Of a stretch of DNA of 64,000 nucleotides, positions 1,855 to 18,349 are shown piece after piece. Origin of the DNA: Prolixibacter bellariivorans ATCC BAA-1284 (GTDB taxonomy: Bacteria; Bacteroidota; Bacteroidia; Bacteroidales; Prolixibacteraceae). Every line of letters starts with the position of its first letter. Position 1 is the stretch's first letter. A program made the position numbers and the translations under genes. The notes under the pieces were generated by a model that was not told the origin of the DNA, ran no database searches, and worked only from the letters and a program-made list of their open reading frames with translations. Location of the stretch: the NCBI RefSeq assembly GCF_000621705.1, contig NZ_JHXO01000012.1, positions 62,001 through 126,000 on the forward strand. Direction: 5' to 3'.

Positions 1855-3183
1855 TTATCCTTCCTTTTCCACGAAAGTGATACCGTAATTTTCCAGCTCA
1901 TTCAGCACCGGTTCGTAGATTTCTTTCCGGTTGGGAATGTGCACGCCGGTCAGAGCGATTTGCCCGGTCATCACCATTTTGGTAGCAATAGCCAACGGCA
2001 ATCCTACGGTCTTCGACATGGCCGTGTGTACACTATCCTCACCGAGCACAACCATCGATGATGTCATTTTCACCGGGTCGGAATCACCGTTCTTTTTGTA
2101 AAGCAATTTGTGCCACATCACCACCATGTCCTTATCATCGGGCTCCATTTTCCATTTCTCCGAAAGGATATGTTCCAGAATCTGTGCAGGAGTGGCTCGT
2201 TTCAGGCCAATCTTTTTATCACTGAATAGTTCGAGATATTCCAGTTTGTCAATGATATCGGAATCCTGATCGATGTGCATGTAGTGATACAGCTTCAATC
2301 GCACCGCTGCTTCGGCATAATAGAGAAACGAGTTGATGAACTCCTTGTAGGTCATGTTCTCGGTGTTCTCCATAAAATACGTATCGTCCGTAGCTCCCAA
2401 CTGCACAAAAATATCCCACGCACGGCAGTACCCCGGACGGCGCAATGTTCCGCGATAAACAGTAGGCACGCCCTGCAGGTTATACTTATCGATGTACTTC
2501 AACGAATCGCGGTTGGCATAGCCTTCAAACTTTCCGAAGCCTTCAATATCGATTACTTCGGTGCGCCGGAAGAGACGGTTGTACGGAATGTACTTGTATT
2601 TTCCTTCCTGAAGGAATTTGGCTGGTCCGCCCTGCCCTGCTACCACCACGTTACGTGGATTCCAGGTGAACTTGTAGTTCCACGGATTATTGTCCGATTC
2701 GGGTGCAACCAGTCCGCCTGTGAACGATTCAAAATCGGTAATAGCATGACCTTCGTGCTTTACGCGATCAATCAGCCGCATGGCCGACATGTGATCGATG
2801 CCCGGGTCAACACCCATTTCGTTCAGGAAGAGTAAGCCTTTGGCCTTCACTTCCGCATCCAAATCGTTCAGTTCGTCAGACACGTAAGAAGCCGTTAGCA
2901 ATGACTTGCCAAATTTGAGGCAAGCCAGCGCCACCACCTGATGCAGACGGGCAGGTAACATCGATACCACAATATCGGCCTGCTCAATTTCCAGGTCTCG
3001 CTGCTGCTCATCGAACACGTCGAAGACGAGCGCCCGGGTGGGCGGCGATATTTTTTCCTTCACCAGGTTAATATCCTGATCACCGACCGTGATTTCCCAA
3101 CCGTAGGTAGGCGCTTGCTCTTCCAGATACCGGATCAGCGTAGCAGATGAGCGTCCGGCACCAATGATGAATATTTTTTTCAT
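1855..3183 (-). CDS. Saccharopine dehydrogenase (L-glutamate-forming type)
   Basis: About 442 residues. It is expected to oxidise saccharopine to L-glutamate and 2-aminoadipate-6-semialdehyde in the cytosol, the second step of the saccharopine lysine route. The N-terminus MKKIFIIGAGRSS is a Rossmann NAD(P)-binding start (GxGxxS), followed by DVFDEQQRD and SMLPARLHQ, then GVDPGIDHMSAM near residues 145-156, typical of the LYS9-like family. The frame is open 8 codons further upstream, but the Rossmann strand should begin at this ATG. It is the last gene of the nine-gene minus-strand cluster, downstream of lysine-ketoglutarate reductase, which makes its substrate. Reverse use in lysine synthesis is possible in fungi, but this phylum makes lysine from aspartate, so catabolism is favoured (inference). 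Confidence 0.85.
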   Translation of the reverse strand: MKKIFIIGAGRSSATLIRYLEEQAPTYGWEITVGDQDINLVKEKISPPTRALVFDVFDEQQRDLEIEQADIVVSMLPARLHQVVALACLKFGKSLLTASYVSDELNDLDAEVKAKGLLFLNEMGVDPGIDHMSAMRLIDRVKHEGHAITDFESFTGGLVAPESDNNPWNYKFTWNPRNVVVAGQGGPAKFLQEGKYKYIPYNRLFRRTEVIDIEGFGKFEGYANRDSLKYIDKYNLQGVPTVYRGTLRRPGYCRAWDIFVQLGATDDTYFMENTENMTYKEFINSFLYYAEAAVRLKLYHYMHIDQDSDIIDKLEYLELFSDKKIGLKRATPAQILEHILSEKWKMEPDDKDMVVMWHKLLYKKNGDSDPVKMTSSMVVLGEDSVHTAMSKTVGLPLAIATKMVMTGQIALTGVHIPNRKEIYEPVLNELENYGITFVEKEG

Positions 3184-3347
3184 AAAGACAATAGATATTA
3201 GAACCAAGATTTTAGACTCCAGACATTAGAAGAAAGATTCCAGCCTGGTCTCCCTCTTTCACCGAATCGCCCCATCCACTCTACTATTCTCAATTTTCCC
3301 CGAAGCCCCAATAACAATTCAAAATCTAACACTCAAAATTCAACATT

Positions 3348-4553
3348 TCAAGAATTCACCCAATCCTCCAGGTATTTATATCGTTCTGTTAGCTTTCCAT
3401 TCTCGGTAATGGTAGCCCGTTGAACAATACCTTCAGAATCTTCGCCCAGCAAAGACGGCAATACCCGGTTGATAAGGTTTTCGCCAAAATCGACAGAAGC
3501 ATCGCGCGGCAACTCGGTCGGCAGATTATCCACCGACATCACCGTAATATTTTTCGGGTTGGTAAAAGCTACTTCTTCCTGTTCCGTCACCGGATTGTAT
3601 CCGTAGAACGGCTCATCGATGGTGGTAGCCCTTAACGTAGACGGTATAGAACCTTTGATGTCGCAGGTAATATCGGATATCACCCTGATGCGGAAATCCG
3701 GACTGCGCATATCTTCCGGTGTAAACAATACCGGAGCATTGGGGTCCCAGTAGGCAGCCGAAATGAGTAAATCGGTGGTTTTCGCAAACCGGAGGAAATT
3801 ACCTTCGTACGCTGTTGGATTTTTCACAAAATGTCCGAAATCGAAAGCACTGCCATCCTTGCGTTTATTGTAAGCGTCGGGTTCGAGTTGCACATACACC
3901 GGTTCGTCAAAATGTTCGGTAGCTAAATATTCGTCGATACTCACTTTCCGAATGTTGATTTCGTCCAGCATCTCCATCACGCCGTGCGTAACGCGACCAC
4001 CGCCGGTAATGGCAATTTTCAACGGTGGAAGTTCCAGTTTGCGGGCCTCCGACTTCATCTCGGCCAAATCGTGACACTCGTATGCCGGCTTCGGTTCGGG
4101 CAACTCATGACGGATGGTCAGGGCACGCAAGCCTTTGTAGCTTCCTACCAGGCCGGCAAAACGGCCAAAACCAATCACGCGCATGCCATTCGGCTCGGTC
4201 AGCACTTCATAATCGATCAATCGTATACGCTTTCGCAGAATCTCCTGAAGAAGTTTTTTGTTGTACGACTGTTTTTTGATGGTATGAGAAAAAAACAGAT
4301 ACGTTTTATCTTCCATCAAATCGGGGATCGGTACCTCTTTCACTCCCATCAGAATATCGCAATCGCTCAAATCGGAATTCATGGAAATACCGGCATTCAA
4401 ATAGTCGCTATCAGGAAAACACCGGATGGGACTCGGCTGAACCGTTAATTCCACTTGCGGAAAACGCTTTTTAATTTCGAGACATTGTTGGGCAGAAAAG
4501 GGCACACGCCGATCGGGCGGTACTTTACCTTCTTTCAGGATACCTAGCTTCAT
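3348..4553 (-). CDS. Lysine-ketoglutarate reductase (saccharopine-forming)
   Basis: 401 residues of the alanine dehydrogenase/PNT-like saccharopine dehydrogenase fold. It is expected to condense L-lysine with 2-oxoglutarate and reduce the imine to saccharopine. The N-terminus (MKLGILKEGKVPPDRRVPFS) is the family hallmark, with an ERR/DRR substrate-binding segment; GFGRFAGLVGSYKGLRAL at about 147-164 and a nucleotide-binding ITGGGRVTHGV near 184 follow. It stands alone rather than fused to saccharopine dehydrogenase as in the animal and plant bifunctional enzyme; the partner gene lies about 165 bases downstream. The gap of about 264 bases upstream could hold a separate promoter. The C-terminus ends RYKYLEDWVNS. 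Confidence 0.85.
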   Translation of the reverse strand: MKLGILKEGKVPPDRRVPFSAQQCLEIKKRFPQVELTVQPSPIRCFPDSDYLNAGISMNSDLSDCDILMGVKEVPIPDLMEDKTYLFFSHTIKKQSYNKKLLQEILRKRIRLIDYEVLTEPNGMRVIGFGRFAGLVGSYKGLRALTIRHELPEPKPAYECHDLAEMKSEARKLELPPLKIAITGGGRVTHGVMEMLDEINIRKVSIDEYLATEHFDEPVYVQLEPDAYNKRKDGSAFDFGHFVKNPTAYEGNFLRFAKTTDLLISAAYWDPNAPVLFTPEDMRSPDFRIRVISDITCDIKGSIPSTLRATTIDEPFYGYNPVTEQEEVAFTNPKNITVMSVDNLPTELPRDASVDFGENLINRVLPSLLGEDSEGIVQRATITENGKLTERYKYLEDWVNS

Positions 4554-4817
4554 TCGCAGAAAATTTAATCAATTAATAAAAAGTTTGAACCGGAATTGAT
4601 CGGTGCGCACAGGTTCTATCAGCAGATTTTGGGAAATCTCCTTCAAGATAAGAAAATATGCGCTGCTTATCATATTGAAAGTAACTTTCGATACAACTAC
4701 ACACATTTGTAAACCGGCGGCAGTACAGAAAATCAACTGAACCATTCATCTAACTTCCTGCCTGCCGTCCGGTTACGACACCAACGAACTTGTCAAATGT
4801 ATGAACCTGTCAAAATG

Positions 4818-6356
4818 CTACACGTTGAACTCAATCCCCTGAGCCAACGGCAATTCCGAACCATAGTTAATGGTATTGGTTTGTCTGCGCATGTATGCTT
4901 TCCAGGCATCAGATCCGGACTCCCGGCCGCCACCGGTATCCTTTTCCCCACCAAATGCGCCACCAATTTCAGCGCCGGAAGTACCAATATTAATATTGGC
5001 AATTCCGCAATCAGAACCTTCGTTCGACAGGAACCTCTCAGTTTCGAGCAGGTTGGTTGAAAACATGGCTGATGACAGACCTTGCGGAACCGCGTTATGC
5101 AATTCGATGGCCTCATCCAGCGTACTGTATTTAATCACATAGAGCAGCGGAGCGAACGTTTCTTCCTGAACAATTTCGTAATGGTTTTCTACTTCGGCAA
5201 CACATGGCACCACGTAGCATCCCGACGCGCAACTGGCGTCCTTATAAACTTCACCACCAAACAGAATCTTGCCACCTTCAGCTTTTACTTTTTCAATAGC
5301 TTTGAAATAAGTATCCGAAGCCCCTTTGTCAATCAGTGGTCCTACATGATTCTTCTCATCGAGCGGATTACCAATTTTCAATCCTTTGTAAACATTGAGC
5401 AGTTTGTTCTTAAACTCTTCGTAAATACTATCGTGAAGAAGAATGCGACGGGTCGACGTACAGCGCTGACCGGTTGTACCAACAGCACCAAATACGATGG
5501 CCCGAAGCGCCATATCCTGATTGGAAGTCGGGGTAACAATCACCGCATTGTTTCCACCCAGCTCCAAAATAGAACGGCCGAGGCGTTCGCCTACCAAACG
5601 ACCAACTTTTTTACCAACCCGGGTAGAACCTGTGAAGGAGATCAACGGGATATTTTTATCGCTGAACATATCGTCGCCCAGGTATTTCGAGCTGGTAGCA
5701 ACCAAACTCAGTACACCTTCCGGGATATCGTTGCGTTTCAGTACATCTGCTACAATGTTATGAACAGCAATCGCACAAAGCAGTACCTTCGACGAAGGTT
5801 TCCAAACCACAACGTCACCGGCGGCCAATGCAATCATGGCATTCCATGCCCAAACCGCTACCGGGAAGTTAAATGCTGAAACGACACCAACAATACCCAG
5901 CGAATGATACTGGTCGTACATCCGGTGCTCGGCACGCTCGGAGTGCATGGTGAAACCATACAACTGGCGCGACTGGCCAACAGCAAAGTCACAGATGTCA
6001 ATCATCTCCTGGACCTCGCCCAAACCTTCCTGGTAAATTTTTCCCATTTCGTAGGAAACCAAACGGCCCAGCGGCTCTTTGTATTTGCGCAGTTCCAGAC
6101 CAATCTGCCGAACTATCTCACCCCGTTTTGGAGCAGGTACTTTCTTCCATACCTTGAAGGCGCCTTTAGCGGTATCAATCACTTTCCGGTAATCTTCCAG
6201 CGTCGCTTGTTGAATCTCGGCAATCGCCGTCCCATCTGCCGGAGAATACGACGTAAGTTTATCGCCGGTGGTATCAATCCATTTCGTACCGGTGCACAAC
6301 CCCGGATTCACATCTTTGATGCCTAATGTTTTCAGTACATCTTTCATTTCTTGCAT
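4818..6356 (-). CDS. Aldehyde dehydrogenase, ALDH7 (antiquitin) type; 2-aminoadipate semialdehyde dehydrogenase
   Basis: 512 residues, a full-length NAD(P)-dependent aldehyde dehydrogenase. Catalytic elements are the AFNFP asparagine (N163), the general base in LELGGNN (E265) and the nucleophile in GTTGQRCTSTRR (C299). LELGGNN in place of the commoner LELGGK is characteristic of the ALDH7/antiquitin group, which oxidises 2-aminoadipate-6-semialdehyde to 2-aminoadipate. That is exactly the product of the saccharopine enzymes downstream on the same strand. An in-frame ATG three codons later (6347) is an alternative start. About 35 bases separate it from the aconitase-family gene upstream, so it is probably cotranscribed with it, tying the lysine genes to the tricarboxylate genes. 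Confidence 0.87.
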   Translation of the reverse strand: MQEMKDVLKTLGIKDVNPGLCTGTKWIDTTGDKLTSYSPADGTAIAEIQQATLEDYRKVIDTAKGAFKVWKKVPAPKRGEIVRQIGLELRKYKEPLGRLVSYEMGKIYQEGLGEVQEMIDICDFAVGQSRQLYGFTMHSERAEHRMYDQYHSLGIVGVVSAFNFPVAVWAWNAMIALAAGDVVVWKPSSKVLLCAIAVHNIVADVLKRNDIPEGVLSLVATSSKYLGDDMFSDKNIPLISFTGSTRVGKKVGRLVGERLGRSILELGGNNAVIVTPTSNQDMALRAIVFGAVGTTGQRCTSTRRILLHDSIYEEFKNKLLNVYKGLKIGNPLDEKNHVGPLIDKGASDTYFKAIEKVKAEGGKILFGGEVYKDASCASGCYVVPCVAEVENHYEIVQEETFAPLLYVIKYSTLDEAIELHNAVPQGLSSAMFSTNLLETERFLSNEGSDCGIANINIGTSGAEIGGAFGGEKDTGGGRESGSDAWKAYMRRQTNTINYGSELPLAQGIEFNV

Positions 6357-6391
6357 AGTATCTAAATTTATGTTGTTATATTTTCTGATAA

Positions 6392-8179
6392 TTAAATAGT
6401 TGTTTCGCTTTTGCGGAGCCAGTTCACCAGCCCGCCTTTTTCCAAAATTTCCATCAGTTTATCCGGCAAAGGATTGAAATGGAAAATCTTCGTTCCGATG
6501 TATATCACGCCGGATGCCATATCAACTTCCACACTTTCATCTTCCCGGTAGGCATTCACCGCTTCGGGCAACACAATGATAGGAAGTCCCTGGTTGATGG
6601 CCGAACGGAAGAAGATCCGGGAAACCGATTTTACAATGATGGCACGCACACCGGCTTTTACCAATCCTACCGACGGATGTTCGCGCGAGCTGCCGCAACC
6701 GAAATTCTCACCACACACAATGATATCGCCCGGCTTCACATTTTCAGCAAAGCGGTCATCAAAGCCTTTAAATAAATGTGGGACAATCTTCTCAGGCTCC
6801 GAGCTGTTGACTTCGTACGTCAAACTGCCGGCAAACATCTGGTCGGTATTCAGATTATCCACATCCGCATAGTTCCATACACCCTTCTGCCGACGATCAT
6901 CACCGGGCTCAACCACCACGGTAGCCGTCTGCTGCTTGTGATACGGAAACTTATGTTCAGAAGTTGCCTTTTCAGGCGAAGTAATTTCACCGCGCAAAGC
7001 GGAAGCGGCCACCGTTGCCGGCGATGCCAGGTAGATGGAAGCATTCTTGTTTCCCATTCGCCCCAGGAAGTTACGGTTAGCCGTCGAAATCACGTTGATG
7101 CCGTCAGCCGGAATCCCCTGTCCTGTTCCCAGACAAGGTCCGCACGAAGGCGAAAGAACATTTCCGCCTGCTTCCAGGAATATTTCAACCAGGCCTTCCT
7201 TCATAGCCTGCAGGTAGATTTCGCGCGAAGCGGGAGTTATCAGCAACTGGAATCCCTCCGGCACTTTATGCCCTTTCAGGATGGCTGCTGCTGCCCGTAA
7301 ATCCTCGATGCGACCGTTGGTGCAGGTTCCGATTAACGCCTGGGCAACCGGTGTTCCGGCTACTTCATCCACGCTCTTTACATTATCGACGTGATGCGGA
7401 CAAGCCGCTACCGGATACAATTCCGACAGATTGATGGTGTATTCTTTTGCATACCCAGCATCATCATCCGCCCAAATGGCTTTGAACTTGGCTCCGAAAT
7501 ATTCTTCCAGCCTTTCGTCTGCCGGGAAAACGGCGTTCTTGGCGCCCATTTCCGAGGCCAGGTTGGTAATGGTCATCCGGTCGGAAACCGCAAGTGTTTT
7601 CACACCGTCTCCGTGGTATTCGATGGACATATAGTCAGCTCCGGAAGAACCAATCATACCAATGATGTACAGCGCCAAATCCTTCGCATATACATGTTCC
7701 TGTAATTTTCCCGTAAGGGTAATTTTAATGGTTTCAGGAACGCGGAACCAGGTTTCTCCCTGTTTCCACAAACCAGCCGTTTCGGTACGGTCGATGCCCG
7801 CAGCAAATGCGTTGAAGGCTCCTGCTGTGCAGGTATGACTGTCACTTCCCACCACCAACATTCCCGGCCGTGCATGACCAGCCATCAACTGATGGCAGAT
7901 TCCCTGACCAGCATCGTGAAAGCTTGATACGTGTTGATCTTTCGCGAAATTGCGAATTTGCTGGTAGTCATTCGCCAGCTTGGCATTGGTAGGCGGTGCA
8001 TTGTGATCGAGCACCAGCAGTAATTTATTGGGATCGGCAACCCGGTCGCCGCCCATCTTGCGAAATATCTTTTCGATACTCGACGAATTATCGTGCGACA
8101 GGATGATATCCGGCTTGGCAAATACAATGCTTCCAACCGGTGCACCCAAAATCTTTTCAGCAAACGTTTTTCCTGACAT
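6392..8179 (-). CDS. Aconitase-superfamily hydro-lyase, large+small domain fusion (homoaconitase/IPM dehydratase type), copy 2
   Basis: 595 residues carrying a catalytic [4Fe-4S] large domain (about 1-420) and a C-terminal swivel domain (about 440-580, GENFGCGSSREHPS) in one chain. Cluster ligands are visible as C286 in GTCTNGR and C346/C349 in SPSCGPCLG. The DH pair of the active site is kept (LDHNAP near 58-63), as is GSDSHTCTAGAF at 111-122. Length and domain order fit the 3-isopropylmalate dehydratase/homoaconitase branch rather than the ~900-residue TCA aconitases. Only 17 bases separate it from the related copy upstream. Expected reaction: reversible dehydration/hydration of a 2-hydroxy-tricarboxylate; citrate, homocitrate and isopropylmalate series cannot be separated by eye, but the lysine context favours the homo-series (inference). 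Confidence 0.82.
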   Translation of the reverse strand: MSGKTFAEKILGAPVGSIVFAKPDIILSHDNSSSIEKIFRKMGGDRVADPNKLLLVLDHNAPPTNAKLANDYQQIRNFAKDQHVSSFHDAGQGICHQLMAGHARPGMLVVGSDSHTCTAGAFNAFAAGIDRTETAGLWKQGETWFRVPETIKITLTGKLQEHVYAKDLALYIIGMIGSSGADYMSIEYHGDGVKTLAVSDRMTITNLASEMGAKNAVFPADERLEEYFGAKFKAIWADDDAGYAKEYTINLSELYPVAACPHHVDNVKSVDEVAGTPVAQALIGTCTNGRIEDLRAAAAILKGHKVPEGFQLLITPASREIYLQAMKEGLVEIFLEAGGNVLSPSCGPCLGTGQGIPADGINVISTANRNFLGRMGNKNASIYLASPATVAASALRGEITSPEKATSEHKFPYHKQQTATVVVEPGDDRRQKGVWNYADVDNLNTDQMFAGSLTYEVNSSEPEKIVPHLFKGFDDRFAENVKPGDIIVCGENFGCGSSREHPSVGLVKAGVRAIIVKSVSRIFFRSAINQGLPIIVLPEAVNAYREDESVEVDMASGVIYIGTKIFHFNPLPDKLMEILEKGGLVNWLRKSETTI

Positions 8180-8196
8180 ACGCCAAATTTTTAACG

Positions 8197-10008
8197 TTAT
8201 ACATGAAGTAAATCTCCCTTCCGGTAGATTTCCATTTGAACATCCGAGAACGGTTGCATCATGATGCTCTTTCCGGTTTTCCGATTGGTCATCTTTCCGG
8301 TTTCGAATTCAACAGCAACTACATCGCCATTCTGAAGTTCCAGTTCTTCAATCGACTCATAGGTCATAATCGGGAAGCCGGCGTTGATAGCATTACGCTC
8401 GTAAATAGCCCCGAACGATTCAGCCAGAACAGCCTGTACGCCCAACGATTTGAAACAGTCGACCGCCTGTTGACGGGAACTTCCGGCACCAAAGTTTTTG
8501 CCGGTAATGACCATATCACCCGGTTGCGCTTTGGAAGCGAAATCTTCCCAGCCCTTCAGGTTACCAAAGGTATATTTCCCCATCTCCGACAGTTCGGTAA
8601 TCGCCAGGTGTTGATTGTGGAAAATCATGTCGGTATCGATGTTGTCTTCCATGACCAGCCAAACCCGTCCTTCGATTACTGACGGCTTTTCTTTATCACT
8701 ATCATGATGCGTTACCAGTACCGCTTCCTGCTTGCCATGTCCTTCCTGGAACAAGGAAGGTTGTTCGGGCAAGTCATCTTCGGTGGTAATATGACCCGCT
8801 ACCGCAGAAGCAGCAGCCGTAGCCGGCGAAGCCAGATACACATCGCCTTTGCCCTGCTTGCCGGCGAAGTTGCGGTTCCCGGTACTTACGGTTTTCTCAC
8901 CTGGGCCGTTTTGTCCCACCTGACCGGCAGCACATCCGGCGCATCCTGCATTGCTCAGCATGGCACCGGCATCTTTGAAGATGCGAATCAGCCCTTCGTC
9001 CATGCAGGCATTCCAAACCTCATCGGTTGACGGAACAATTTTCAGGACTACACCGGGAGCCACTTTCCGGCCTTTCAGAATCCGGGCAGCAGCCCGCATG
9101 TCTTCCATACGCCCGTTTGTACAACTACCAATAAAGGATGAATCGATTTTGGTTCCCTTCACCTGTTCCACCGGAACCACATCGTGCGGTTTTCCCGGAA
9201 GGGAAATGGCGGGAACAAAAGACTCAATATTCAACCCGAAGGTTTGCGCATATTTGGCGTCTCCATCGGCAAATACCGGTTCAAAATCTCCCCCGGAGCG
9301 TTCTTTTGCATATTGAATCACCTCATCCGATGGCGGGAAAAAGACGGCGATAGCCCCCATTTCCGTTCCCATGGAAGAGATAGTGATGCGCTCGTCCAGC
9401 GTGAGTTTCTCAACCGCTTCACCATAGAGCTCTACCGATTCGCCCAACAAACTGCTGGCGCCAAAATGCTGCAGCAAGTTCAGGACAATATCCTTGGCAT
9501 AAATACCAGCCGGGCGCTTTCCATTGAGGGTAATTTTAACTGATTCCGGCACTTTGAACCAGACGGCTCCCCGTGCCCAGGCCGCTGCAATATCGCGGTC
9601 GCCCATCCCCTGTCCGAAGGCGCCAATAGCACCAAGAATATTGGCGTGCGAATCGGTGGATACGACGGTTGAACCGGGAACAGCCAAACCTTTATCAATC
9701 GCCAGATGCGTTCCAATTCCGGAATTGATGTCGTACACCCGGATATTGAAGTCGCGGGCAAAAAGGCGGCACTTTTGCTGATTGGCAGCATATTTCTGGT
9801 CCGATCCGGTTGGATTGCAGTCGAAGGTGAAGAAAGTCTTCGAGCTGTTATCGACAGCCAGCTGGTTGTCCACCAAATTCTTCACCACATTCGCTCCACC
9901 AAAATCCCGGGCCAGCCGGACATCAATACTGATATCGACAATCTCGCCCGGTTTCACCGACTCTTTCCCCGAATGGGTCGCGATTATTTTTTCAATGATG
10001 GTCATCAT
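8197..10008 (-). CDS. Aconitase-superfamily hydro-lyase fusion, divergent copy 1
   Basis: 603 residues with the same large+swivel fusion layout as its downstream neighbour but clearly divergent in sequence. [4Fe-4S] ligands are present: C296 (GSCTNGR) and C356/C359 (NAGCAGC). The swivel domain at about 440-600 has GKNFGAGSSRQQ instead of the usual GSSRE. At the position where relatives carry an Asp-His pair the sequence reads FDCNPTG, so the His appears replaced by Cys (C64), and the later motif reads STDSHANILGAIGAF. These changes suggest a different substrate or half-reaction from the neighbour. A second in-frame ATG is at 10005. It probably lies in one transcript with the dehydrogenase and citrate-lyase-like genes upstream, despite a gap of about 150 bases. 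Confidence 0.8.
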   Translation of the reverse strand: MMTIIEKIIATHSGKESVKPGEIVDISIDVRLARDFGGANVVKNLVDNQLAVDNSSKTFFTFDCNPTGSDQKYAANQQKCRLFARDFNIRVYDINSGIGTHLAIDKGLAVPGSTVVSTDSHANILGAIGAFGQGMGDRDIAAAWARGAVWFKVPESVKITLNGKRPAGIYAKDIVLNLLQHFGASSLLGESVELYGEAVEKLTLDERITISSMGTEMGAIAVFFPPSDEVIQYAKERSGGDFEPVFADGDAKYAQTFGLNIESFVPAISLPGKPHDVVPVEQVKGTKIDSSFIGSCTNGRMEDMRAAARILKGRKVAPGVVLKIVPSTDEVWNACMDEGLIRIFKDAGAMLSNAGCAGCAAGQVGQNGPGEKTVSTGNRNFAGKQGKGDVYLASPATAAASAVAGHITTEDDLPEQPSLFQEGHGKQEAVLVTHHDSDKEKPSVIEGRVWLVMEDNIDTDMIFHNQHLAITELSEMGKYTFGNLKGWEDFASKAQPGDMVITGKNFGAGSSRQQAVDCFKSLGVQAVLAESFGAIYERNAINAGFPIMTYESIEELELQNGDVVAVEFETGKMTNRKTGKSIMMQPFSDVQMEIYRKGDLLHV

Positions 10009-10161
10009 TTCAATTAGAAATTAAAAATGAGAAATAAACAATTGGAAAGAGCTTTCAAGTTGCCTTGGAAATCTTCTGCTCAACGCCAAAACGTTCAGTG
10101 CAAAATCAATTGATGTATCAACGACCTGATTTTCCTTCATTGCTCATTTTTCATTGTTCAT

Positions 10162-10716
10162 TCATTTACTCATTGCCTTAAAGGGCAGAAACGTCATAAA
10201 ATCGGCATGGTGCACGATGTACGCCTCGGTCGTGCGCTTCACCATGTCGCCTTCACCGGCATGTGCCGCAATGATATGGCAGACTTCAGCCGGAACACCA
10301 CAGGATTCAGCCAGCGAAACTCCCGAAAACGGATGCCTCAGCAGTTTACCATATCTTCCCTTGAAAGAGTTCCCGTTTTCGTCCAGTTCGTATTCCAGAA
10401 GTTTGCCCACATCAGCCAGAATAGCCCCGGCAATCAGGACATCCATATTCACAGGGAGCTCACTCTTGAAGAACTCGTTCATCTTCATGCCACTTTCGCG
10501 GGCAATGTGAACGACCGCCCGCTTGTGGTCCATGAAACTGACTTTCAAATCAGGGCCGCAAAGAAGTGTGAACGGAATCCGGTGCAAATCTTCTGGTGTC
10601 AACACACTTTTCTCCAGTGCCCGACGCCATGTTTCTGCAGTCTTATCGCGGAGTTCTCCATCTTTAATCCAGAGCAGCTCCGGCCAGAGGTCATATACTT
10701 GTTCCAGGTTGCTCAT
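10162..10716 (-). CDS. HD-domain-like protein with degenerate metal motif
   Basis: 184 residues with the helical HD-superfamily layout: H64 (MDHKRAVVH), then GAILADVGKLLEYE at 97-110, HPF at 128-130, IIAAHAGEGD around 148-157 and HHADFMTF at 169-176. In active HD phosphohydrolases the central motif reads HDxGK; here it reads ADVGK, so one metal-binding His (position 101) is Ala while the Asp and other His residues remain. It may therefore be weakly active or a binding/regulatory protein. Its ATG overlaps the stop of the upstream dehydrogenase gene (TAATG), showing translational coupling and operon membership. Why an HD protein sits among tricarboxylate enzymes is unknown. Confidence 0.75.
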   Translation of the reverse strand: MSNLEQVYDLWPELLWIKDGELRDKTAETWRRALEKSVLTPEDLHRIPFTLLCGPDLKVSFMDHKRAVVHIARESGMKMNEFFKSELPVNMDVLIAGAILADVGKLLEYELDENGNSFKGRYGKLLRHPFSGVSLAESCGVPAEVCHIIAAHAGEGDMVKRTTEAYIVHHADFMTFLPFKAMSK

Positions 10717-11906
10717 TACTTCAGTTTTTCAATGATAGCATCGGCCATCTGCTGTGTCGAAGCCGCACCTTTTTCAATCACATCGGGCCGTCCCGCCATC
10801 TTCATCATATCGTACGTGCGGACTTTACCCTCAGCCACCACTTCAGCAATGGCCTCACGGATTTTGATGGCTTTGTCGTTTTCACCGAGATGATCCAACA
10901 TCATACAAGCCGATTCAATCATCGCAATCGGATTGACAATCGACACATCGTAATCGGCATATTTCGGTGCGGAACCGTGCGTCGGTTCAAAAACGGCTAC
11001 TTCGTCACCCATATTGGCGCTGCAGGCAAATCCCAAACCGCCAATCAATCCGGCAAAACCATCCGAAACGATATCGCCGAACATGTTTCCGGCTACGATG
11101 ACTCCATAGTCTTCCGGATTTTTGGTCAACCACATCATCTGCGCATCGATGTTGGTATTCCAGAGCGCTATTCCTGCATATTCCTGCTGAATCTCTTTCG
11201 CCATTTTATACATCATTCCCGATGTTTCGCGAATCACGTTGGGCTTCTCGCAGAGTGTTACCGACTTGTAGCCGTATTTCGCAGCATGAGCAAAGGCGGC
11301 TCGAAGAATACGTTCTGTCGCTTTTTTGGTAAAGATTCGGGTCGAAACCGATAACTCATTCCGGGGAACCGAACCAAAGTTTTTCACAAACTTGGGATGC
11401 GTCATCAATGCATCGTAAACTTTATCGTCCGGATTGCTCCATTCCACACCACCGTAGAGCCCTTCGGTATTCTGACGGAAAATGACCACATCCACTTCCG
11501 GCTCTTCAACGCTGTTTTCTTTGCCGCGACGAATGAAGTTGAGCGGATTTCCTTTGTATGTATGGCACGGACGCATGCAGATGTCGAGATTGAAATGCTG
11601 ACGAAGACCGACAATCGGACTGGAATATACCAGGCCTTTCTCCTTCAACCCGGGCGAAAGTTCGTTAAACGCTTCTTCTTTCGGTTTCGAAGTAATCGCA
11701 CCAAACAATCCCACTTTGTGCTCTTCCAGAAGTTTGATAGTGCGCTCGGGCAGCGGATTTCCTTCTTTGCACCAAAATTCCCAGCCAATATCACCTTCTA
11801 CGTAATCGGCTTCAAATCCGGCTGCTTCCAGTACCCTGATGGCTTCGGGAAGGACTGTCTTTCCAATGCCGTCACCCGGCATCGCTACGATGGTTCTTTT
11901 TGCCAT
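10716..11906 (-). CDS. Isocitrate/homoisocitrate/isopropylmalate-type beta-decarboxylating dehydrogenase
   Basis: 396 residues, a full-length decarboxylating (or reductively carboxylating) dehydrogenase starting MAKRTIVAMPGDGIG. Visible active-site parts: Y151 in NTEGLYGGVEW, K221 in CEKPNVIRE, metal-binding D278 and D282 in GDIVSDG, and substrate arginines in GLRQHFNLDICMRP. The cofactor loop HGSAPKY (K315, Y316) with TYD near 364-366 matches the NADP-specific pattern of E. coli isocitrate dehydrogenase, except that the later Arg is Lys (K369). So NADP is favoured over NAD. The ATG at 11906 is preferred over one seven codons upstream. Substrate could be isocitrate or homoisocitrate; neighbouring lysine genes favour the latter (inference). 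Confidence 0.82.
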   Translation of the reverse strand: MAKRTIVAMPGDGIGKTVLPEAIRVLEAAGFEADYVEGDIGWEFWCKEGNPLPERTIKLLEEHKVGLFGAITSKPKEEAFNELSPGLKEKGLVYSSPIVGLRQHFNLDICMRPCHTYKGNPLNFIRRGKENSVEEPEVDVVIFRQNTEGLYGGVEWSNPDDKVYDALMTHPKFVKNFGSVPRNELSVSTRIFTKKATERILRAAFAHAAKYGYKSVTLCEKPNVIRETSGMMYKMAKEIQQEYAGIALWNTNIDAQMMWLTKNPEDYGVIVAGNMFGDIVSDGFAGLIGGLGFACSANMGDEVAVFEPTHGSAPKYADYDVSIVNPIAMIESACMMLDHLGENDKAIKIREAIAEVVAEGKVRTYDMMKMAGRPDVIEKGAASTQQMADAIIEKLK

Positions 11907-11998
11907 AGTCAATTGATTTTTTGGCACGCCACTGATTTTTGGTGCTCAGAGGCGTTGCGCTCGTTTGTTTTTAAATCGGCTTGGTCACTAATATTGGT

Positions 11999-13570
11999 TC
12001 AATTTTCTGTTTTCTTTTCGTCTACCTGCCGCACCACATCGATCACGGTTCCGTCCACCCATTTGATGGCGGCGATAATCTTATCGGTAAATACCGGTTT
12101 CTTCGGCTTACCGCAAATACGTTCCGCTTCTTCCTTCATCTCTTCGATGGTCCGAATGGGAAGACCGGAATCCTTCGCTTTTTCTATCAAATCTTTCCTT
12201 AGCGGATTGATGGCGATGCCTCGTTCAGTTACAATCACATCGATGAGTTCGCCCGGTCCACACAGCGTGGTCACCTCGTCCACAATCACCGGAATACGGT
12301 CACGGAACAGTGGTATGGGTAAAATGACCGTCTTGGAGAAAAGGCAGTTTTGCCAGCCCCCGAGACCGTGCAGTAATTTACCGTCGGAGTGTGTCACCAC
12401 GTTGGCGTTGAAATTCACATCCACTTCGGTAGCACCGAGGATAACCACATCCACCAAACCGGCGAAGTTTCCTTTGCTGTGGTAGTTGTAACTGGTAAAC
12501 GGACTGGTCCAGGTATGATTCGGATTATCGCGCATGGAGCGAACGCCTTCCAAATCAAAGGTCTGTCCGTCGAGGATGTATTCCACCAAACCCTCTTCCA
12601 GCATTTCAACCAGGTACTTGTTACTTCCGCCGCGGGCAAACCGGGCCTTAATACCTTTCCGGCGCATGATTTCGCCAAAGTAGATCCCGATGGAGAGCGC
12701 GGTTCCTCCGGCTCCGGCCTGAAACGAAAATCCATCGTGAATAATGCCGGTCGCTTCACAGAATTTGGCCGTCATCTCCGCAATCAGCAGGCGGTCTGGG
12801 CTTTTGGTAATCTGCGTGGTTCCGGAGACAATCTTCTCCGGAATACCGATTTTCTCCACCTCAACTGTGTAATCGACATGGTTTCCCTGAATTTGCCACG
12901 GCACACAAGGGAATGGCACCATGTTGTCGGTTACCACAATCACGTTGTTTGCATATTGCGAATCGGCCAGAGCAAAGCCCAACAATCCACTGGATGAAGG
13001 ACCATTCAGCCCATTGGCATTACCAAACGGATCGGCACAGGCGGCACCAATCACGGCAATGTCGATTTTCACTTCACCATCCTGCACTGCCTGGTAGCGT
13101 CCGCCATGCGAGCGAAGCACGGCTGTTTTCTTCATCTTTCCATCCGAACAAAACCGTCCGAGCGGTCCGTTCATACTTCCTTCGATGTGACTGATAGTCC
13201 CATCTTCCAGGTAAGGAATCAAATGTGCATGGCATGGGAAAGACGCCGACGGATACCAGCGAATATCTTTCACGCCCAGCTCCTTCACCACATCAAAAAC
13301 CATGTTGGCAACCAGGTCGCCGTCGCGGAAATGATGATGCGTGGAAATGGTCATGCCATCTTTGAGTCCGGCTTTTATTAACGCCTCTTTCAGTGAGGCA
13401 ACCTGTTTGTTTCCGTCAGCCGGATAATCGGCGTTGGTTGGAATAGCCGATGCGTGTTTTTTTCCTTCCGGGCGATATTTCCCGACGCCCATAAACGGAA
13501 CAACCGGTTCGCCGTTTATTTCTGACGGAACAAGCCGTCCCACTGCATTATATATCAGATCTTCATTCAT
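11999..13570 (-). CDS. citF: Citrate lyase alpha-subunit-like CoA/acyl-carrier transferase (CitF family)
   Basis: About 523 residues matching the CitF family over full length, with STHHHFRDGDLV at about 76-87, IEGSMNGPLGR, an ATGIIHDGFSFQAGAGGT segment and NVVTHSDGKLLHGLGGWQN near 410-430. In citrate lyase this subunit swaps the acetyl group on the acyl carrier protein for the incoming citrate, forming citryl-ACP and releasing acetate. The start codon lies inside the end of the upstream CitD-CitE gene (8-base overlap, ATGAATGA), so the two are translationally coupled and surely work together. The frame is open further upstream but the overlap start fits the family. The substrate may be homocitrate rather than citrate in this context (inference). 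Confidence 0.85.
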   Translation of the reverse strand: MNEDLIYNAVGRLVPSEINGEPVVPFMGVGKYRPEGKKHASAIPTNADYPADGNKQVASLKEALIKAGLKDGMTISTHHHFRDGDLVANMVFDVVKELGVKDIRWYPSASFPCHAHLIPYLEDGTISHIEGSMNGPLGRFCSDGKMKKTAVLRSHGGRYQAVQDGEVKIDIAVIGAACADPFGNANGLNGPSSSGLLGFALADSQYANNVIVVTDNMVPFPCVPWQIQGNHVDYTVEVEKIGIPEKIVSGTTQITKSPDRLLIAEMTAKFCEATGIIHDGFSFQAGAGGTALSIGIYFGEIMRRKGIKARFARGGSNKYLVEMLEEGLVEYILDGQTFDLEGVRSMRDNPNHTWTSPFTSYNYHSKGNFAGLVDVVILGATEVDVNFNANVVTHSDGKLLHGLGGWQNCLFSKTVILPIPLFRDRIPVIVDEVTTLCGPGELIDVIVTERGIAINPLRKDLIEKAKDSGLPIRTIEEMKEEAERICGKPKKPVFTDKIIAAIKWVDGTVIDVVRQVDEKKTEN

Positions 13571-14771
13571 GATTTTCTCTCCAGTTGGTTGACAGTTTAC
13601 CCGATTGAATCGCCAGTTCGATGGTGTGAACAGCGCGTTTGACAACCGGGGCATCAATCATTTTCGAACCAAGGGCAACAACGCCCAGTCCCTTTTCTTG
13701 CGCCTGCTTAAAAGCGATCACAATGCGCTTCGCCTTTTCAATTTCCTGTTCATCCGGACTGAAACCTTCGTTGATGACCGGAACCTGGCGCGGATGAATA
13801 CATCCCATACCAGCAAAACCCAACGCTTTCGATTCGAGCACATTGCTACGCAATGCTTCCATGTCATCAATTTCGGAGAAAACCGAATCAATGGGCTGGA
13901 TACCTGCTGCGCGTGCAGCATTGACAACCGCACTGCGGGCGTAAAAGGATTCGCGTCCTTCGGCTGTTCGCTGAGCTCCTAAATCAGCTGTATAATCCTC
14001 CAGACCAATCGCCAATGCAGCAACATTGGGCAAAGCCGATGCAATTTCATAAGCTTTTACCACTCCCAGAGCACTCTCAATAATTGGCATCAGGTAGATA
14101 TCGGTATTTTCGCGACCCAGTATCTTTTCAATGCGTTCCTCCGCCTGAATGATTTGCTGCGCACTCTCGCACTTGGGAATCAGAATCAGGTTCACCTGCT
14201 CGGGAACAATGGCATCCAAATCTTCCAGTCCGGCCGGCAATTGATTAATCCGAACCATTCGTTCGGCATCACCAAAGTCAACTGCACGCAGGGCATTGCG
14301 AACCAGCAAACGGGCCTCGGCTTTTTTGTCAGGTGCTACCGAATCTTCCAAATCGAGAATGATACCGTCGCTTCCGTAGATGCCGGCATTCAGCATCAGC
14401 TTCGGATTATTTCCCGGTAGGTACAAACGGGTCCGTCGGGTACGATCGCGGCCTGTCCGATGAAGATTTTTTGTTTCAATGGGTAATAAAAAGGATTCAT
14501 CCGTTCCGGTTAACCGGCGGATAGCCGCTTCCAGGCGTGCTGCAATGACAAATGGAAGAGCTCCTTTGTCTTCTATTTCCACCAGTACATTCCGAAGATT
14601 GTAATGGGTCAGCACTTCGTGACAAAGTTCCCGGATGGAGTCGCCAAACAGGCTTTCAACTTTACTTAGTAACCGGATTTCAGTTGCATGATGCTCAGTT
14701 TTAGCAATCTGTACAAAACAGTCTGAGCGTACGCTGTCTCCACGGTTTCCGGCTGTTGCAGTCATGGGCAT
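13563..14771 (-). CDS. citE: CitD-CitE fusion: acyl-carrier domain plus citrate lyase beta-type aldolase
   Basis: 402 residues in two parts. Residues about 7-95 match CitD, the citrate lyase acyl carrier (LFGDSIREL at 41-49, EDKGALP at 67-73). Residues about 112-390 match CitE of the HpcH/HpaI TIM-barrel aldolase family (TRLYLPGNNPKL, LDLEDSVAPDKK at 139-150, GCIHPRQV). CitE cleaves the acyl-ACP to acetyl-ACP and a 2-oxoacid (oxaloacetate from citrate; 2-oxoglutarate if from homocitrate). CitD and CitE are normally separate subunits, so the fusion is unusual. The serine that carries the prosthetic group in E. coli CitD lies two before an Asp (S-G-D); here that place is Arg15, with Ser16 next to it and Ser13 nearby. 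First gene of the cluster; an in-frame ATG also lies at 14765. Confidence 0.83.
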   Translation of the reverse strand: MPMTATAGNRGDSVRSDCFVQIAKTEHHATEIRLLSKVESLFGDSIRELCHEVLTHYNLRNVLVEIEDKGALPFVIAARLEAAIRRLTGTDESFLLPIETKNLHRTGRDRTRRTRLYLPGNNPKLMLNAGIYGSDGIILDLEDSVAPDKKAEARLLVRNALRAVDFGDAERMVRINQLPAGLEDLDAIVPEQVNLILIPKCESAQQIIQAEERIEKILGRENTDIYLMPIIESALGVVKAYEIASALPNVAALAIGLEDYTADLGAQRTAEGRESFYARSAVVNAARAAGIQPIDSVFSEIDDMEALRSNVLESKALGFAGMGCIHPRQVPVINEGFSPDEQEIEKAKRIVIAFKQAQEKGLGVVALGSKMIDAPVVKRAVHTIELAIQSGKLSTNWRENHE

Positions 14772-16328: not shown

Positions 16329-16403
16329 CTTTTTAAAAGTTGTCTCCCAAGATCGGAAATTGCTTAGATTTAGACCTGGAAGTACGAATTTAACCTATTG
16401 CAT

Positions 16404-17531
16404 ATGAAACTGAAGCACCTTTCTACTTTGTATCTGATTGCCTTTTTGCTACTTGGCCTCTTTTCGTGTAAAAACAAACCAACGGCCAAAGAAGACAACT
16501 CCGGCCAAATTGCCGTGATGGCTTATTATGCAGGCGATGCCAATAAAATTGACCAGTATAACCTTGGCGAGGTCACACATGTTATCTACAGCTTCCTTCA
16601 TCTGAAAGGAAATGAGCTGGCCTACGACTCTCCGGAGGATAGTCTTGGTGTAGCGCATTTAGTTGCCTTAAAGGAAAAGTATCCCGATTTGAAAGTCATG
16701 GTTTCGCTTGGTGGCTGGGGCGGTTGTAAAACCTGTTCCGAAGTTTTCTCCACGCCCGAAGGACGCGAAGCATTTGCCCTTTCGGTGAAACGAATTCTGG
16801 ATAACTCCGGCGCTGACGGACTTGACCTCGACTGGGAATATCCCTCCATCGAAGGTTATCCGGGGCATCAATACCTTCCGGAAGACAAAGACAACTTTAC
16901 CGCCCTGGTAACTGCTCTAAGGAAAACACTTGGCAAAAAAGCCATCATCAGTTTTGCCGCAGGCGGTTTCCAGCAATTCCTCGAAAATTCCATTGACTGG
17001 AAAGCGGTGATGCCGGAAGTGAATTACGTGAACCTCATGTCGTATGATTTGGTTAATGGCTACAGCAAAGTAACCGGTCACCACACGCCGCTATATTCGA
17101 ACGCTTCGCAAACCGAATCGACCGATAACGCAGTGAAATACCTCGAGAAAGCGGGTGTTCCCTCCAACAAGATTGTGATTGGCGCCGCATTTTATGCCCG
17201 CGTTTGGAAAGGTGTGAAAAACGTGGATAACGGCTTGTACCAGGCCGGCATTTTCAAACAAGGCGTCGGTTATAACAAGTTCGATTCAATTCTATCGCCC
17301 CGGCAGGGTTTTAAAGCGTATTGGGACAGTGTAGCGCAGGCTCCGTACATGTATAATGCAAAAGACAGTTTGTTTGCTACGTATGACGATCCGAAATCGG
17401 TAGCCCTGAAAACCAAATACACCATCGATAATCATCTGGGTGGTATTATGTTCTGGCAGCTAGCCAACGATAAAATGAAAGACGGTTTGCTGGATGCTAT
17501 CTACAAAGCGAAAGAGACGACCGAAAAATAA
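16404..17531 (+). CDS. GH18 chitinase-type glycoside hydrolase, lipoprotein
   Basis: 375 residues. The N-terminus (MKLKHLSTLYLIAFLLLGLFSC) is a lipoprotein signal with the lipidated Cys near residue 22. A GH18 TIM barrel follows: MVSLGGWGG (SxGG motif, about 99-107), the catalytic DGLDLDWE at 138-145 with acid/base E145, and MSYDL near 212. GH18 enzymes cut beta-1,4-GlcNAc bonds with help from the substrate N-acetyl group, so chitin or chito-oligosaccharides are likely. C108 and C111 lie just after the SxGG motif. An upstream in-frame TTG (16398) is less likely than the ATG. It may act with the GlcNAc utilisation locus 14 kb away, though it is not linked to it. Confidence 0.88.
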   Translation: MKLKHLSTLYLIAFLLLGLFSCKNKPTAKEDNSGQIAVMAYYAGDANKIDQYNLGEVTHVIYSFLHLKGNELAYDSPEDSLGVAHLVALKEKYPDLKVMVSLGGWGGCKTCSEVFSTPEGREAFALSVKRILDNSGADGLDLDWEYPSIEGYPGHQYLPEDKDNFTALVTALRKTLGKKAIISFAAGGFQQFLENSIDWKAVMPEVNYVNLMSYDLVNGYSKVTGHHTPLYSNASQTESTDNAVKYLEKAGVPSNKIVIGAAFYARVWKGVKNVDNGLYQAGIFKQGVGYNKFDSILSPRQGFKAYWDSVAQAPYMYNAKDSLFATYDDPKSVALKTKYTIDNHLGGIMFWQLANDKMKDGLLDAIYKAKETTEK

Positions 17532-17677: not shown

Positions 17678-18349
17678 ATGTCCGACCATTACCGCCAACA
17701 ATACCGTATTCCTTCGGCCCGGGCCAATTGGTGGGATTACCGCAATGAGGCGGCCTATTTTATCACCATCTGTACTGCGGGAAAAACACATTATTTCGGA
17801 ACTGTCCGGAATAGGAATATGTATTTGTCGAAATTGGGAGAGATTGCCAAACACGAATGGTTACGCACACCCATGATGCGCCGTGATATGCATATCACAT
17901 TAGATGAATATATCATCATGCCCAATCATTTTCATGCAATTATCGTTATTGGGGAGAATTCGTTCAATTCCCTGTTAAAACAACAACAGGGCGATCGTAG
18001 AGACGCAATGCCTTGCGTCTCCCGCAACGAACGACACAACAAAAGAGACGCAAAGCATTGCGTCTCTACAACGTTCCAATCAGCGTCGGCACAAAACGAC
18101 GAAGGGGGTGCCAACCGATTTGGACCGCAACAAAAAAATCTGCCTTCCATTATCCGCGGATTCAAATCATCGGTGACACGGCGCGCACGACAAACACAAC
18201 CGGACTTTGCCTGGCAACCGCGTTATTACGACCATATCATCCGCGATAACAACGATTGGATGCGTATCCGTGAATACATTCAAAACAACCCGGCACAATG
18301 GGGACAAACCGATGATGATGACCACAACGAAACACCACCGCGTGTTTGA
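17678..18349 (+). CDS. REP-associated tyrosine transposase (RAYT, Y1/HUH family) carrying REP insertions
   Basis: 223 residues. It is a single-strand DNA transposase/nuclease of the IS200-like Y1 family that handles REP palindromes. Seen: YFITICT at 27-33, the HUH motif in MPNHFHAIIV (H84, H86) and the catalytic Tyr region WQPRYYDHIIR (Y183/Y184). Between HUH and Tyr, residues about 105-131 are encoded by two copies of the local REP palindrome inserted in frame (GDRRDAMPCVS and KRDAKHCVS). RAYTs are usually stable single-copy genes that mobilise nearby REPs, and more than ten similar palindromes lie in the next 8.5 kb. A chitinase terminator precedes it. Whether the insertion-bearing linker keeps activity is unknown. 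Confidence 0.85.
   Translation: MSDHYRQQYRIPSARANWWDYRNEAAYFITICTAGKTHYFGTVRNRNMYLSKLGEIAKHEWLRTPMMRRDMHITLDEYIIMPNHFHAIIVIGENSFNSLLKQQQGDRRDAMPCVSRNERHNKRDAKHCVSTTFQSASAQNDEGGANRFGPQQKNLPSIIRGFKSSVTRRARQTQPDFAWQPRYYDHIIRDNNDWMRIREYIQNNPAQWGQTDDDDHNETPPRV
17996..18022. repeat. REP palindrome, type A, inside the RAYT coding region
   Basis: Arms GAGACGCAA / TTGCGTCTC with a TGCC loop, preceded by GATCGTA. It is read in frame as part of the transposase linker. Confidence 0.85.
18044..18067. repeat. REP palindrome, type A, second copy inside the RAYT gene
   Basis: Arms AGAGACGCAA / TTGCGTCTCT with an AGCA loop, again without breaking the reading frame. Confidence 0.85.

Follow-up and report, generated by a model that had tools for sequence, protein, structure and literature searches.

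A candidate route from lysine to acetate through homocitrate in a nine-gene operon of Prolixibacter bellariivorans

Why should genes of the citrate lyase, isocitrate dehydrogenase and aconitase families share an operon with genes of lysine breakdown? The question arises from a 64,000-nucleotide stretch of the Prolixibacter bellariivorans ATCC BAA-1284 genome (contig NZ_JHXO01000012.1, positions 62,001 to 126,000; hereafter the window), in which nine open reading frames (ORFs) run together on the minus strand from 1855 to 14771. A first-pass annotation, made from the letters of the window, had proposed that they encode a complete route from lysine to acetate through a reversed homocitrate pathway. 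We find this the likely reading of the operon: lysine would pass by way of 2-oxoadipate, homoisocitrate and homocitrate to acetate and 2-oxoglutarate. The nine genes are probably a catabolic lysine operon of a fermentative kind.

In their order on the minus strand, the genes are:

13563..14771, minus strand: CitD-CitE fusion (CitDE), predicted homocitryl carrier and lyase (Pfam ACP 69 bits, HpcH_HpaI 189 bits)
11999..13657, minus strand: CitF-type acyl transferase subunit (TIGR01584 527 bits, cut-off 501)
10716..11927, minus strand: dehydrogenase of the isocitrate/homoisocitrate family, predicted to carboxylate 2-oxoadipate reductively (Iso_dh 268 bits)
10162..10716, minus strand: HD-domain protein, its gene usually adjoining the dehydrogenase gene (PF01966 37 bits)
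8197..10008, minus strand: ACN1, fused LeuC+LeuD/HacAB-type hydro-lyase, predicted homocitrate/homoaconitate step (PRK00402 420 bits; 4kp1 8e-79)
6392..8179, minus strand: ACN2, fused LeuC+LeuD/HacAB-type hydro-lyase, predicted homoaconitate/homoisocitrate step (PRK00402 499, hacA_fam 488, TIGR00139 333 bits)
4818..6356, minus strand: ALDH7-type L-piperidine-6-carboxylate (aminoadipate semialdehyde) dehydrogenase (NF050084 789 bits, cut-off 730)
3348..4553, minus strand: lysine-ketoglutarate reductase (LKR; AlaDh_PNT_N, best PDB match the LKR part of AASS)
1855..3207, minus strand: saccharopine dehydrogenase, glutamate-forming (SDH; Sacchrp_dh_C 258 bits, best PDB match the SDH part of AASS)

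ORF calls and family scans bore out the nine co-directional genes and supported each name, with one correction: the two enzymes that the first-pass annotation placed in the aconitase family are marked by their profile scores as fused LeuC+LeuD or HacA+HacB-type proteins and not as classical aconitases. The gaps between adjoining genes range from -95 to 264 bp. The -95 bp overlap of CitDE and CitF is due to a TTG start; an internal ATG near 13570, the likely true start of CitF, leaves a short overlap instead. At the lysine end, all three families of the saccharopine pathway are present in the operon, and the assignments that make LKR, SDH and the ALDH7-type enzyme a set leading from lysine to 2-aminoadipate held up in the NF050084 and AASS matches. 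The best solved structures are the LKR part (8dda, 6e-45) and the SDH part (5l78, 3e-63) of AASS. In the whole genome of 5.15 Mb, the operon LKR is the sole copy at E 1e-6 and the ALDH7-type enzyme the sole copy at E 1e-150.

By these assignments, LKR, SDH and the ALDH7-type enzyme would convert lysine to 2-aminoadipate, and a transaminase encoded outside the operon would turn this into 2-oxoadipate. The dehydrogenase, running in its carboxylating direction, would then combine 2-oxoadipate with CO2 and NAD(P)H to give homoisocitrate, which ACN2 would convert to homoaconitate and ACN1 further to homocitrate. Cleavage by the CitF/CitDE lyase would yield acetate and 2-oxoglutarate; the latter would go back to LKR and the transaminase, or be oxidised further. 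We infer the tricarboxylate steps together with their substrates and direction.

We asked how often the lysine genes stand beside the tricarboxylate genes (the module) in relatives. GTDB species genomes were scanned with an ACN1 alignment and the best 80 of at least 479 relatives' loci were kept; many of the 80 end at contig ends, and the linkage counts are lower bounds. All nine genes appear in the same order in eight loci (L074, L082, L083, L092, L093, L094, L102, L134). At least one lysine gene (60% query coverage) lies in 15 of the 80, and 14 of these 15 also carry CitF or CitDE; CitF is found in 22. Elsewhere the arrangement differs. Four Cloacimonadota loci (L080, L085, L089, L119) and that of a fifth genome (L291) have an SDH-LKR pair on the CitDE side, and the end of a further locus (L088) leaves LKR only. 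The LKR and SDH proteins of L080, L085, L088, L089 and L119 are divergent (29-37% to those of the window); in L085 and L089, Pfam matches bear out both families. In a sister-class genome (G384), the set ALDH7-SDH-LKR follows CitF at a distance of about 4 kb and is read from the opposite strand; in two more (L286, L290) ALDH7 adjoins LKR, but the dehydrogenase lies on another contig. The expected linkage of lysine and tricarboxylate genes is thus found in related genomes as well as in rearranged loci of other groups, and we reject chance adjacency on the strength of the conserved order and the differing arrangements. Two Cloacimonadota loci also hold a further saccharopine-dehydrogenase-family protein 3' of the module (L085:15793-16920, 375 residues, by Pfam; L089:21145-21795, cut by the locus end, by eye), possibly a lysine 6-dehydrogenase.

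Co-occurrence was checked in samples of 35 and then 42 genomes, hand-picked from the loci and from earlier matches. CitF is present in 41 of the 42; the fairer figure is 13 of 14, counted among the genomes (G664-G677) in which no CitF was seen at the fetched locus, the miss being G667. In a sample of the class, CitF occurs in 4 of 295 genomes, that of the window counted. LKR accompanies the module in all 10 lysine-operon genomes, all six Cloacimonadota and all three of G172, G277 and G159. It is also found in 16 of the 18 module genomes lacking local linkage (G659-G676; misses G660 and G662, with G667 partial at a contig edge), and in 9 of 16 sister-class genomes picked for a 67-74% identical dehydrogenase, a set that includes the linked G384 and of which only part was checked for CitF. 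Among the controls, LKR was found in 0/12 dehydrogenase-negative members of the phylum, 0/5 genomes of the same order and 3/4 other members of the class (3/21 in total). Outside this control count, it is missing from all five genomes with only a distant, 50% identical dehydrogenase. The comparisons, in which genomes are not phylogenetically independent and controls are few, give Fisher p values of 3e-6 for the module without local linkage (16/18 versus 3/21), 2e-5 for 28/38 versus 3/21, and 0.003 for the sister class (9/16 versus 0/12). We had also considered the co-occurrence of ALDH7 with the module as class-level evidence and discarded it as uninformative: ALDH7 is present in 21/21 class controls outside the order and absent from the module genomes G172, G277 and G159. 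The same family was found in 0/9 same-order genomes without the operon and in 10/10 sister-class genomes with the dehydrogenase.

The genome of the window carries a second, canonical set of citrate enzymes. Its three PF00180 matches are LeuB, the operon dehydrogenase and a eukaryotic-type NADP isocitrate dehydrogenase (733 bits, cut-off 335); its PF00330 matches are LeuC, a mitochondrial-type aconitase (1170 bits, cut-off 825), ACN1, and ACN2 in two pieces. With the single citrate synthase, the steps from citrate to 2-oxoglutarate are therefore covered outside the operon. In 9 of 35 genomes (G646, G648, G653 as a fragment, G665, G666, G667, G669, G671, G672), an Iso_dh gene other than that of the module lies directly beside citrate synthase, which suggests that in these genomes the citrate cycle does not use the module dehydrogenase. 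In three Cloacimonadota genomes (G655, G656, G658), the sole citrate-synthase-family match falls within an ORF of 616 residues, which from its size we take to be possibly an ATP-citrate lyase subunit.

For both hydro-lyases, ACN1 and ACN2, PRK00402 and hacA_fam outscore the aconitate hydratase model PRK07229. Both proteins pass the subfamily cut-off of PRK00402 and ACN2 that of hacA_fam; the cut-off of the homoaconitase model TIGR00139 (530 bits) is reached by neither ACN2 (333 bits) nor ACN1 (235 bits). Against large subunits of solved structures, ACN1 scores 269 bits with isopropylmalate/citramalate isomerase, 226 with homoaconitase and 98 with aconitase. A further comparison came from a sister class within this phylum, which we believe to be Ignavibacteria. 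Fetching 20 regions around dehydrogenase matches, we obtained 15 with the 67-74% identical sister-class dehydrogenase. Thirteen of these have the dehydrogenase, the HD protein and a hydro-lyase of about 660 residues together; of the two exceptions, L063 shows the dehydrogenase alone and L065 no dehydrogenase in the ORF calls. CitDE is present in 11 of the 15, and 11 of the 15 hold a 477-residue protein (cut in L072), which belongs to MmgE/PrpD in the tested case, L057. TIGR00139 matches the sister-class hydro-lyase at E 1e-100 or better in 14 of 14 proteins (the 13 and L288), and the first of them scores 860 bits against the cut-off of 530. According to one paper (PMC3556520), fungal homoaconitases perform only the homoaconitate/homoisocitrate half of the reaction and another enzyme performs the homocitrate half. 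Since a homoaconitase of the fungal type would carry out only one half-reaction, a second dehydratase is expected in the sister-class cluster; the homoaconitase and the PrpD-type dehydratase would then match ACN2 and ACN1 of the window. ACN2 is also the nearer of the two to the sister-class homoaconitases (309-343 bits versus 237-260 for ACN1). A Thr-Tyr pair follows the small-domain NTD motif in 32/32 ACN2 proteins and 14/14 homoaconitases where the motif was found; the motif itself was missing from 6 of 38 ACN2 and 16 of 81 ACN1 rows. Four loci (L058, L060, L072, L288) have a CstA-like carbon-starvation transporter of 543-544 residues, recognised by eye, between the dehydrogenase and HD genes.

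All three citrate lyase subunit families, CitF, CitE and CitD, are present in the operon, and CitF, the only one in the genome, lies above the cut-off of TIGR01584; PRK13253 (gamma subunit) is likewise above cut-off. The module is distinct from canonical citrate lyase in several respects. Module CitF proteins form a clade separate from canonical and second-locus CitF (support 100/98), with one further, divergent CitF (L300) on a very long branch of the tree. The second loci come from four of the 10 lysine-operon genomes (G645, G647, G649, G651), which carry another CitF of 596-605 bits. Beside it stand CitE, a protein of about 465 residues that contains CitG, and a CitC-like protein. CitD is present at three of these four loci, the fourth starting within CitE; CitC lies above cut-off in the one scanned, and the other three are named by resemblance. 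CitG was found in 4 of the 80 genomes, every time next to the second CitF; those four are the only module genomes with it, and 38 of 42 lack it. In a Cloacimonadota locus (L088:2579-5826), two CitF genes from separate parts of the tree stand in tandem.

Several observations weigh against a homocitrate route. In the lyase, CitDE reaches neither the TIGR citE nor the citD model at cut-off, and the shortfall on citE is a point of this kind. The maturation gene CitG (PF01874), which the first-pass annotation had noted as not being in the window, is absent even from the whole genome. In a CitD alignment of 35 module proteins, two of which have short N-termini and were excluded from the count, the canonical serine column holds Arg (30) or Lys (3) in 33/33 rows, and Ser in 3/3 canonical rows; the column is presumably the prosthetic-group-carrying serine of the ESxD motif (Ser14 in Klebsiella). 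The next residue is Ser in 32/33 rows, followed by Asp and Cys in 33/33, and the CitDE of the window likewise has Arg and then Ser-Asp-Cys. Arg or Lys at the serine position and a genome lacking CitG suggest that the lyase probably works without the usual triphosphoribosyl-dephospho-CoA (CoA, coenzyme A) on the canonical serine. With this serine gone, its chemistry cannot simply be the textbook one. CoA thioesters or the invariant cysteine of the CitD domain may stand in for the prosthetic group. The AlphaFold model of CitDE (predicted local distance difference test, pLDDT, 86) has the fold of malyl-CoA lyase and CLYBL, a family acting on CoA thioesters, which is in keeping with a mechanism based on CoA but does not demonstrate one.

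The model and structure scores of the dehydrogenase add points against the proposed substrate. Its best NCBIfam models are the AksF homoisocitrate dehydrogenases of methanogens (269 and 268 bits), and it misses their cut-offs of 500 and 540; the isocitrate dehydrogenase model PRK08997 gives 224 bits, likewise below cut-off. The solved structures give a slight lead to 6lky, a putative NAD isocitrate dehydrogenase (190 bits), over homoisocitrate dehydrogenase (179 bits). Similarity over the whole sequence thus does not decide on the substrate. In the substrate loop, YxSPI stands in 60 of 61 aligned rows, the lone exception being LeuB of the same genome; 6lky has YRSVN, with the Asn of the SxN motif of isocitrate dehydrogenases. 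A second subgroup of about 50% identity makes up 16 of 53 dehydrogenase matches (G443, G424, G435, G610, G305 and others). SPI also occurs in this subgroup, whose three aligned members read YRSPIVRMRQ and whose five tested genomes are those without LKR mentioned above. SPI by itself therefore does not mark homoisocitrate, and we treat it as a suggestive, weak pointer to that substrate. The pocket motif is identical in lysine-linked and unlinked module dehydrogenases, and this suggests one substrate for both.

The remaining points against the route come from the operon's gaps and from the wider set of genomes. No aminoadipate transaminase lies inside the operon (no whole-genome search was made). 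LKR is missing from G592, from G660 and G662, and from 7 of the 16 sister-class dehydrogenase genomes. ALDH7 is missing from G592, G172, G277, G159 and G660, from 5/6 Cloacimonadota and 2/3 Delongbacteria, and from eight further module genomes (G664, G665, G668, G670, G671, G673-G675), so that the semialdehyde step is unexplained there. G592 combines a more distant module dehydrogenase (51%) with the lack of both LKR and ALDH7, and its module may work on citrate. A single Iso_dh match, of the score class of the module enzyme, is all that 15 of 35 genomes have, and it could be their isocitrate dehydrogenase. Three lysine-operon genomes (G645, G647, G651) have, besides the module Iso_dh, only a LeuB-score match (the search did not extend to monomeric isocitrate dehydrogenase or Re-citrate synthase). 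No PF00285 citrate synthase was found in 13 of 42 genomes, and three more gave a weak partial match. Some neighbours of the module also belong to central metabolism: VorB-type 2-oxoacid:ferredoxin oxidoreductase genes (L070 and L134 by scan, L075 by similarity), malic enzyme (a fusion with phosphotransacetylase in L070; L291), and, in L107, fumarase and (recognised by eye) SucCD. These neighbours suit either reading, because 2-oxoglutarate is the product in the homocitrate route and the substrate in a citrate route.

Set against one another, the lysine-to-acetate route is upheld by linkage, by the separate citrate enzymes and by the sister-class homoaconitase, and is strained by the absence of CitG, by the loss of the CitD serine and by modules without LKR or ALDH7. 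Of the readings considered, it explains most economically the linkage and co-occurrence of the genes, the second copies of central enzymes and the sister-class homoaconitase. We are more tentative about its fullest form, which may or may not hold: a complete reverse-homocitrate fermentation of lysine in Bacteroidota, Cloacimonadota and Delongbacteria, ending in a dedicated homocitrate lyase that has abandoned triphosphoribosyl-dephospho-CoA for CoA thioesters or a thioester on the carrier cysteine.

The first alternative keeps to six-carbon acids. 2-Oxoglutarate would be converted through isocitrate and citrate to acetate and oxaloacetate, or part of this sequence would run oxidatively, and the lysine genes would be attached because LKR uses 2-oxoglutarate and SDH releases glutamate. 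The CitF score above the citrate lyase cut-off, the genomes whose lone Iso_dh is of the module class, the modules without LKR, and the neighbouring oxidoreductase, malic enzyme, fumarase and SucCD genes all speak for it. However, the genome of the window has its own aconitase, isocitrate dehydrogenase and citrate synthase, the other Iso_dh pairs with citrate synthase in nine genomes, and four genomes keep a separate CitG-linked citrate lyase. Neither the fungal-type homoaconitase of the sister class nor the co-occurrence of LKR with the module is expected here, and 2-aminoadipate would be left without an outlet in the operon. We consider this reading unlikely. A plain tricarboxylic acid cycle or citrate fermentation cluster, weakened by the canonical enzymes elsewhere, the Iso_dh/citrate synthase pairs and the CitG-linked lyase loci, is kept as a rival.

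Alternatively, the module might handle both six- and seven-carbon acids, citrate in genomes without the lysine genes and homocitrate in those that degrade lysine. The shared pocket motif of linked and unlinked dehydrogenases would suit this, as would the genomes whose only Iso_dh is that of the module; NCBIfam also holds a model for a bifunctional isocitrate-homoisocitrate dehydrogenase (NF040855), which matches the operon enzyme weakly. The citrate steps are duplicated elsewhere in the genome of the window, and the sister class has an enzyme of homoaconitase type; both count against a dual role, which we hold to be improbable. Lysine synthesis in the fungal style, from acetate or acetyl-ACP (acyl carrier protein) and 2-oxoglutarate through homocitrate and aminoadipate, is very unlikely: solved saccharopine dehydrogenases of both kinds, lysine-forming and glutamate-forming, are among the matches of LKR and SDH, fungal saccharopine dehydrogenases run towards lysine and the sister class has its homoaconitase, but the ALDH7-type dehydrogenase is oxidative, the operon has no carboxylate reductase, and a citrate-lyase-type enzyme takes the place of homocitrate synthase (the genome search did not cover other genes of lysine biosynthesis). 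No homocitrate synthase was found in the operon; elsewhere in the genome the search covered the synthase beside LeuB, which falls below every homocitrate synthase cut-off.

The predicted structure of the HD protein (pLDDT 90) has a single fold match at E <0.001, YhaM (E 2.5e-5), and this match gives the protein no role. Near the operon, we noted by eye an ORF resembling a REP-type (Y1) transposase (17678-18349) and one resembling a GH18 chitinase (16398-17531).

If the homocitrate route is right, it would be a new way of degrading lysine without oxygen, with uptake of CO2 and with acetate and 2-oxoglutarate as its end products. The lineages that carry the module are common in anoxic sediments and digesters. 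The route would also predict homocitrate lyase as a novel enzyme activity and would give annotators a reason to avoid the names citrate lyase, aconitase and isocitrate dehydrogenase for such genes. The lost cofactor site raises the question of how citrate-lyase-type catalysis proceeds without the usual prosthetic group. In the open-access literature searched, we found no paper for "homocitrate lyase" and none for Cloacimonas with saccharopine, though printed work may exist beyond it; among the matches listed, titles and abstract openings gave none on lysine breakdown through homocitrate. Passages in PMC5317091 deal with biosynthesis. A lysine-to-acetate route of this kind is apparently undescribed.

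Known systems share parts of the proposed route. The alpha-aminoadipate pathway of lysine biosynthesis in fungi and Thermus has the same proposed intermediates from homocitrate to 2-oxoadipate, and it is echoed in the sister-class homoaconitase and in the operon dehydrogenase, which is nearest to homoisocitrate dehydrogenase models. Unlike that pathway, the operon is proposed to run in reverse: it starts at lysine, and aminoadipate semialdehyde is oxidised rather than formed. The biosynthetic pathway starts with homocitrate synthase, whereas the operon route would end in a cleavage of the citrate lyase type. Saccharopine-dependent lysine degradation has the first three enzymes in common (LKR, SDH and ALDH7). 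It continues by decarboxylation of 2-oxoadipate to glutaryl-CoA or, in pseudomonads, by conversion to 2-hydroxyglutarate, whereas carboxylation followed by cleavage to acetate and 2-oxoglutarate is proposed for the operon.

Citrate lyase, CitDEF with CitC, CitX and CitG, has the CitD, CitE and CitF families in common with the operon, CitF to the point of exceeding the TIGR01584 cut-off. The operon differs in its fused CitD-CitE, its own CitF clade, the Arg or Lys in place of serine and a genome without CitG; in four genomes, the CitG-linked citrate lyase locus exists alongside the module. Lysine fermentation by way of lysine 2,3-aminomutase is a known anaerobic route with acetate among its products; it uses the same substrate and likewise forms acetate, and has no enzyme in common with the operon. 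Finally, the reductive citric acid half-cycle from 2-oxoglutarate to citrate matches the proposed chemistry in form, with a chain shorter by one carbon, whereas the operon is a second gene set, with lysine genes and homoaconitase-type enzymes of its own.

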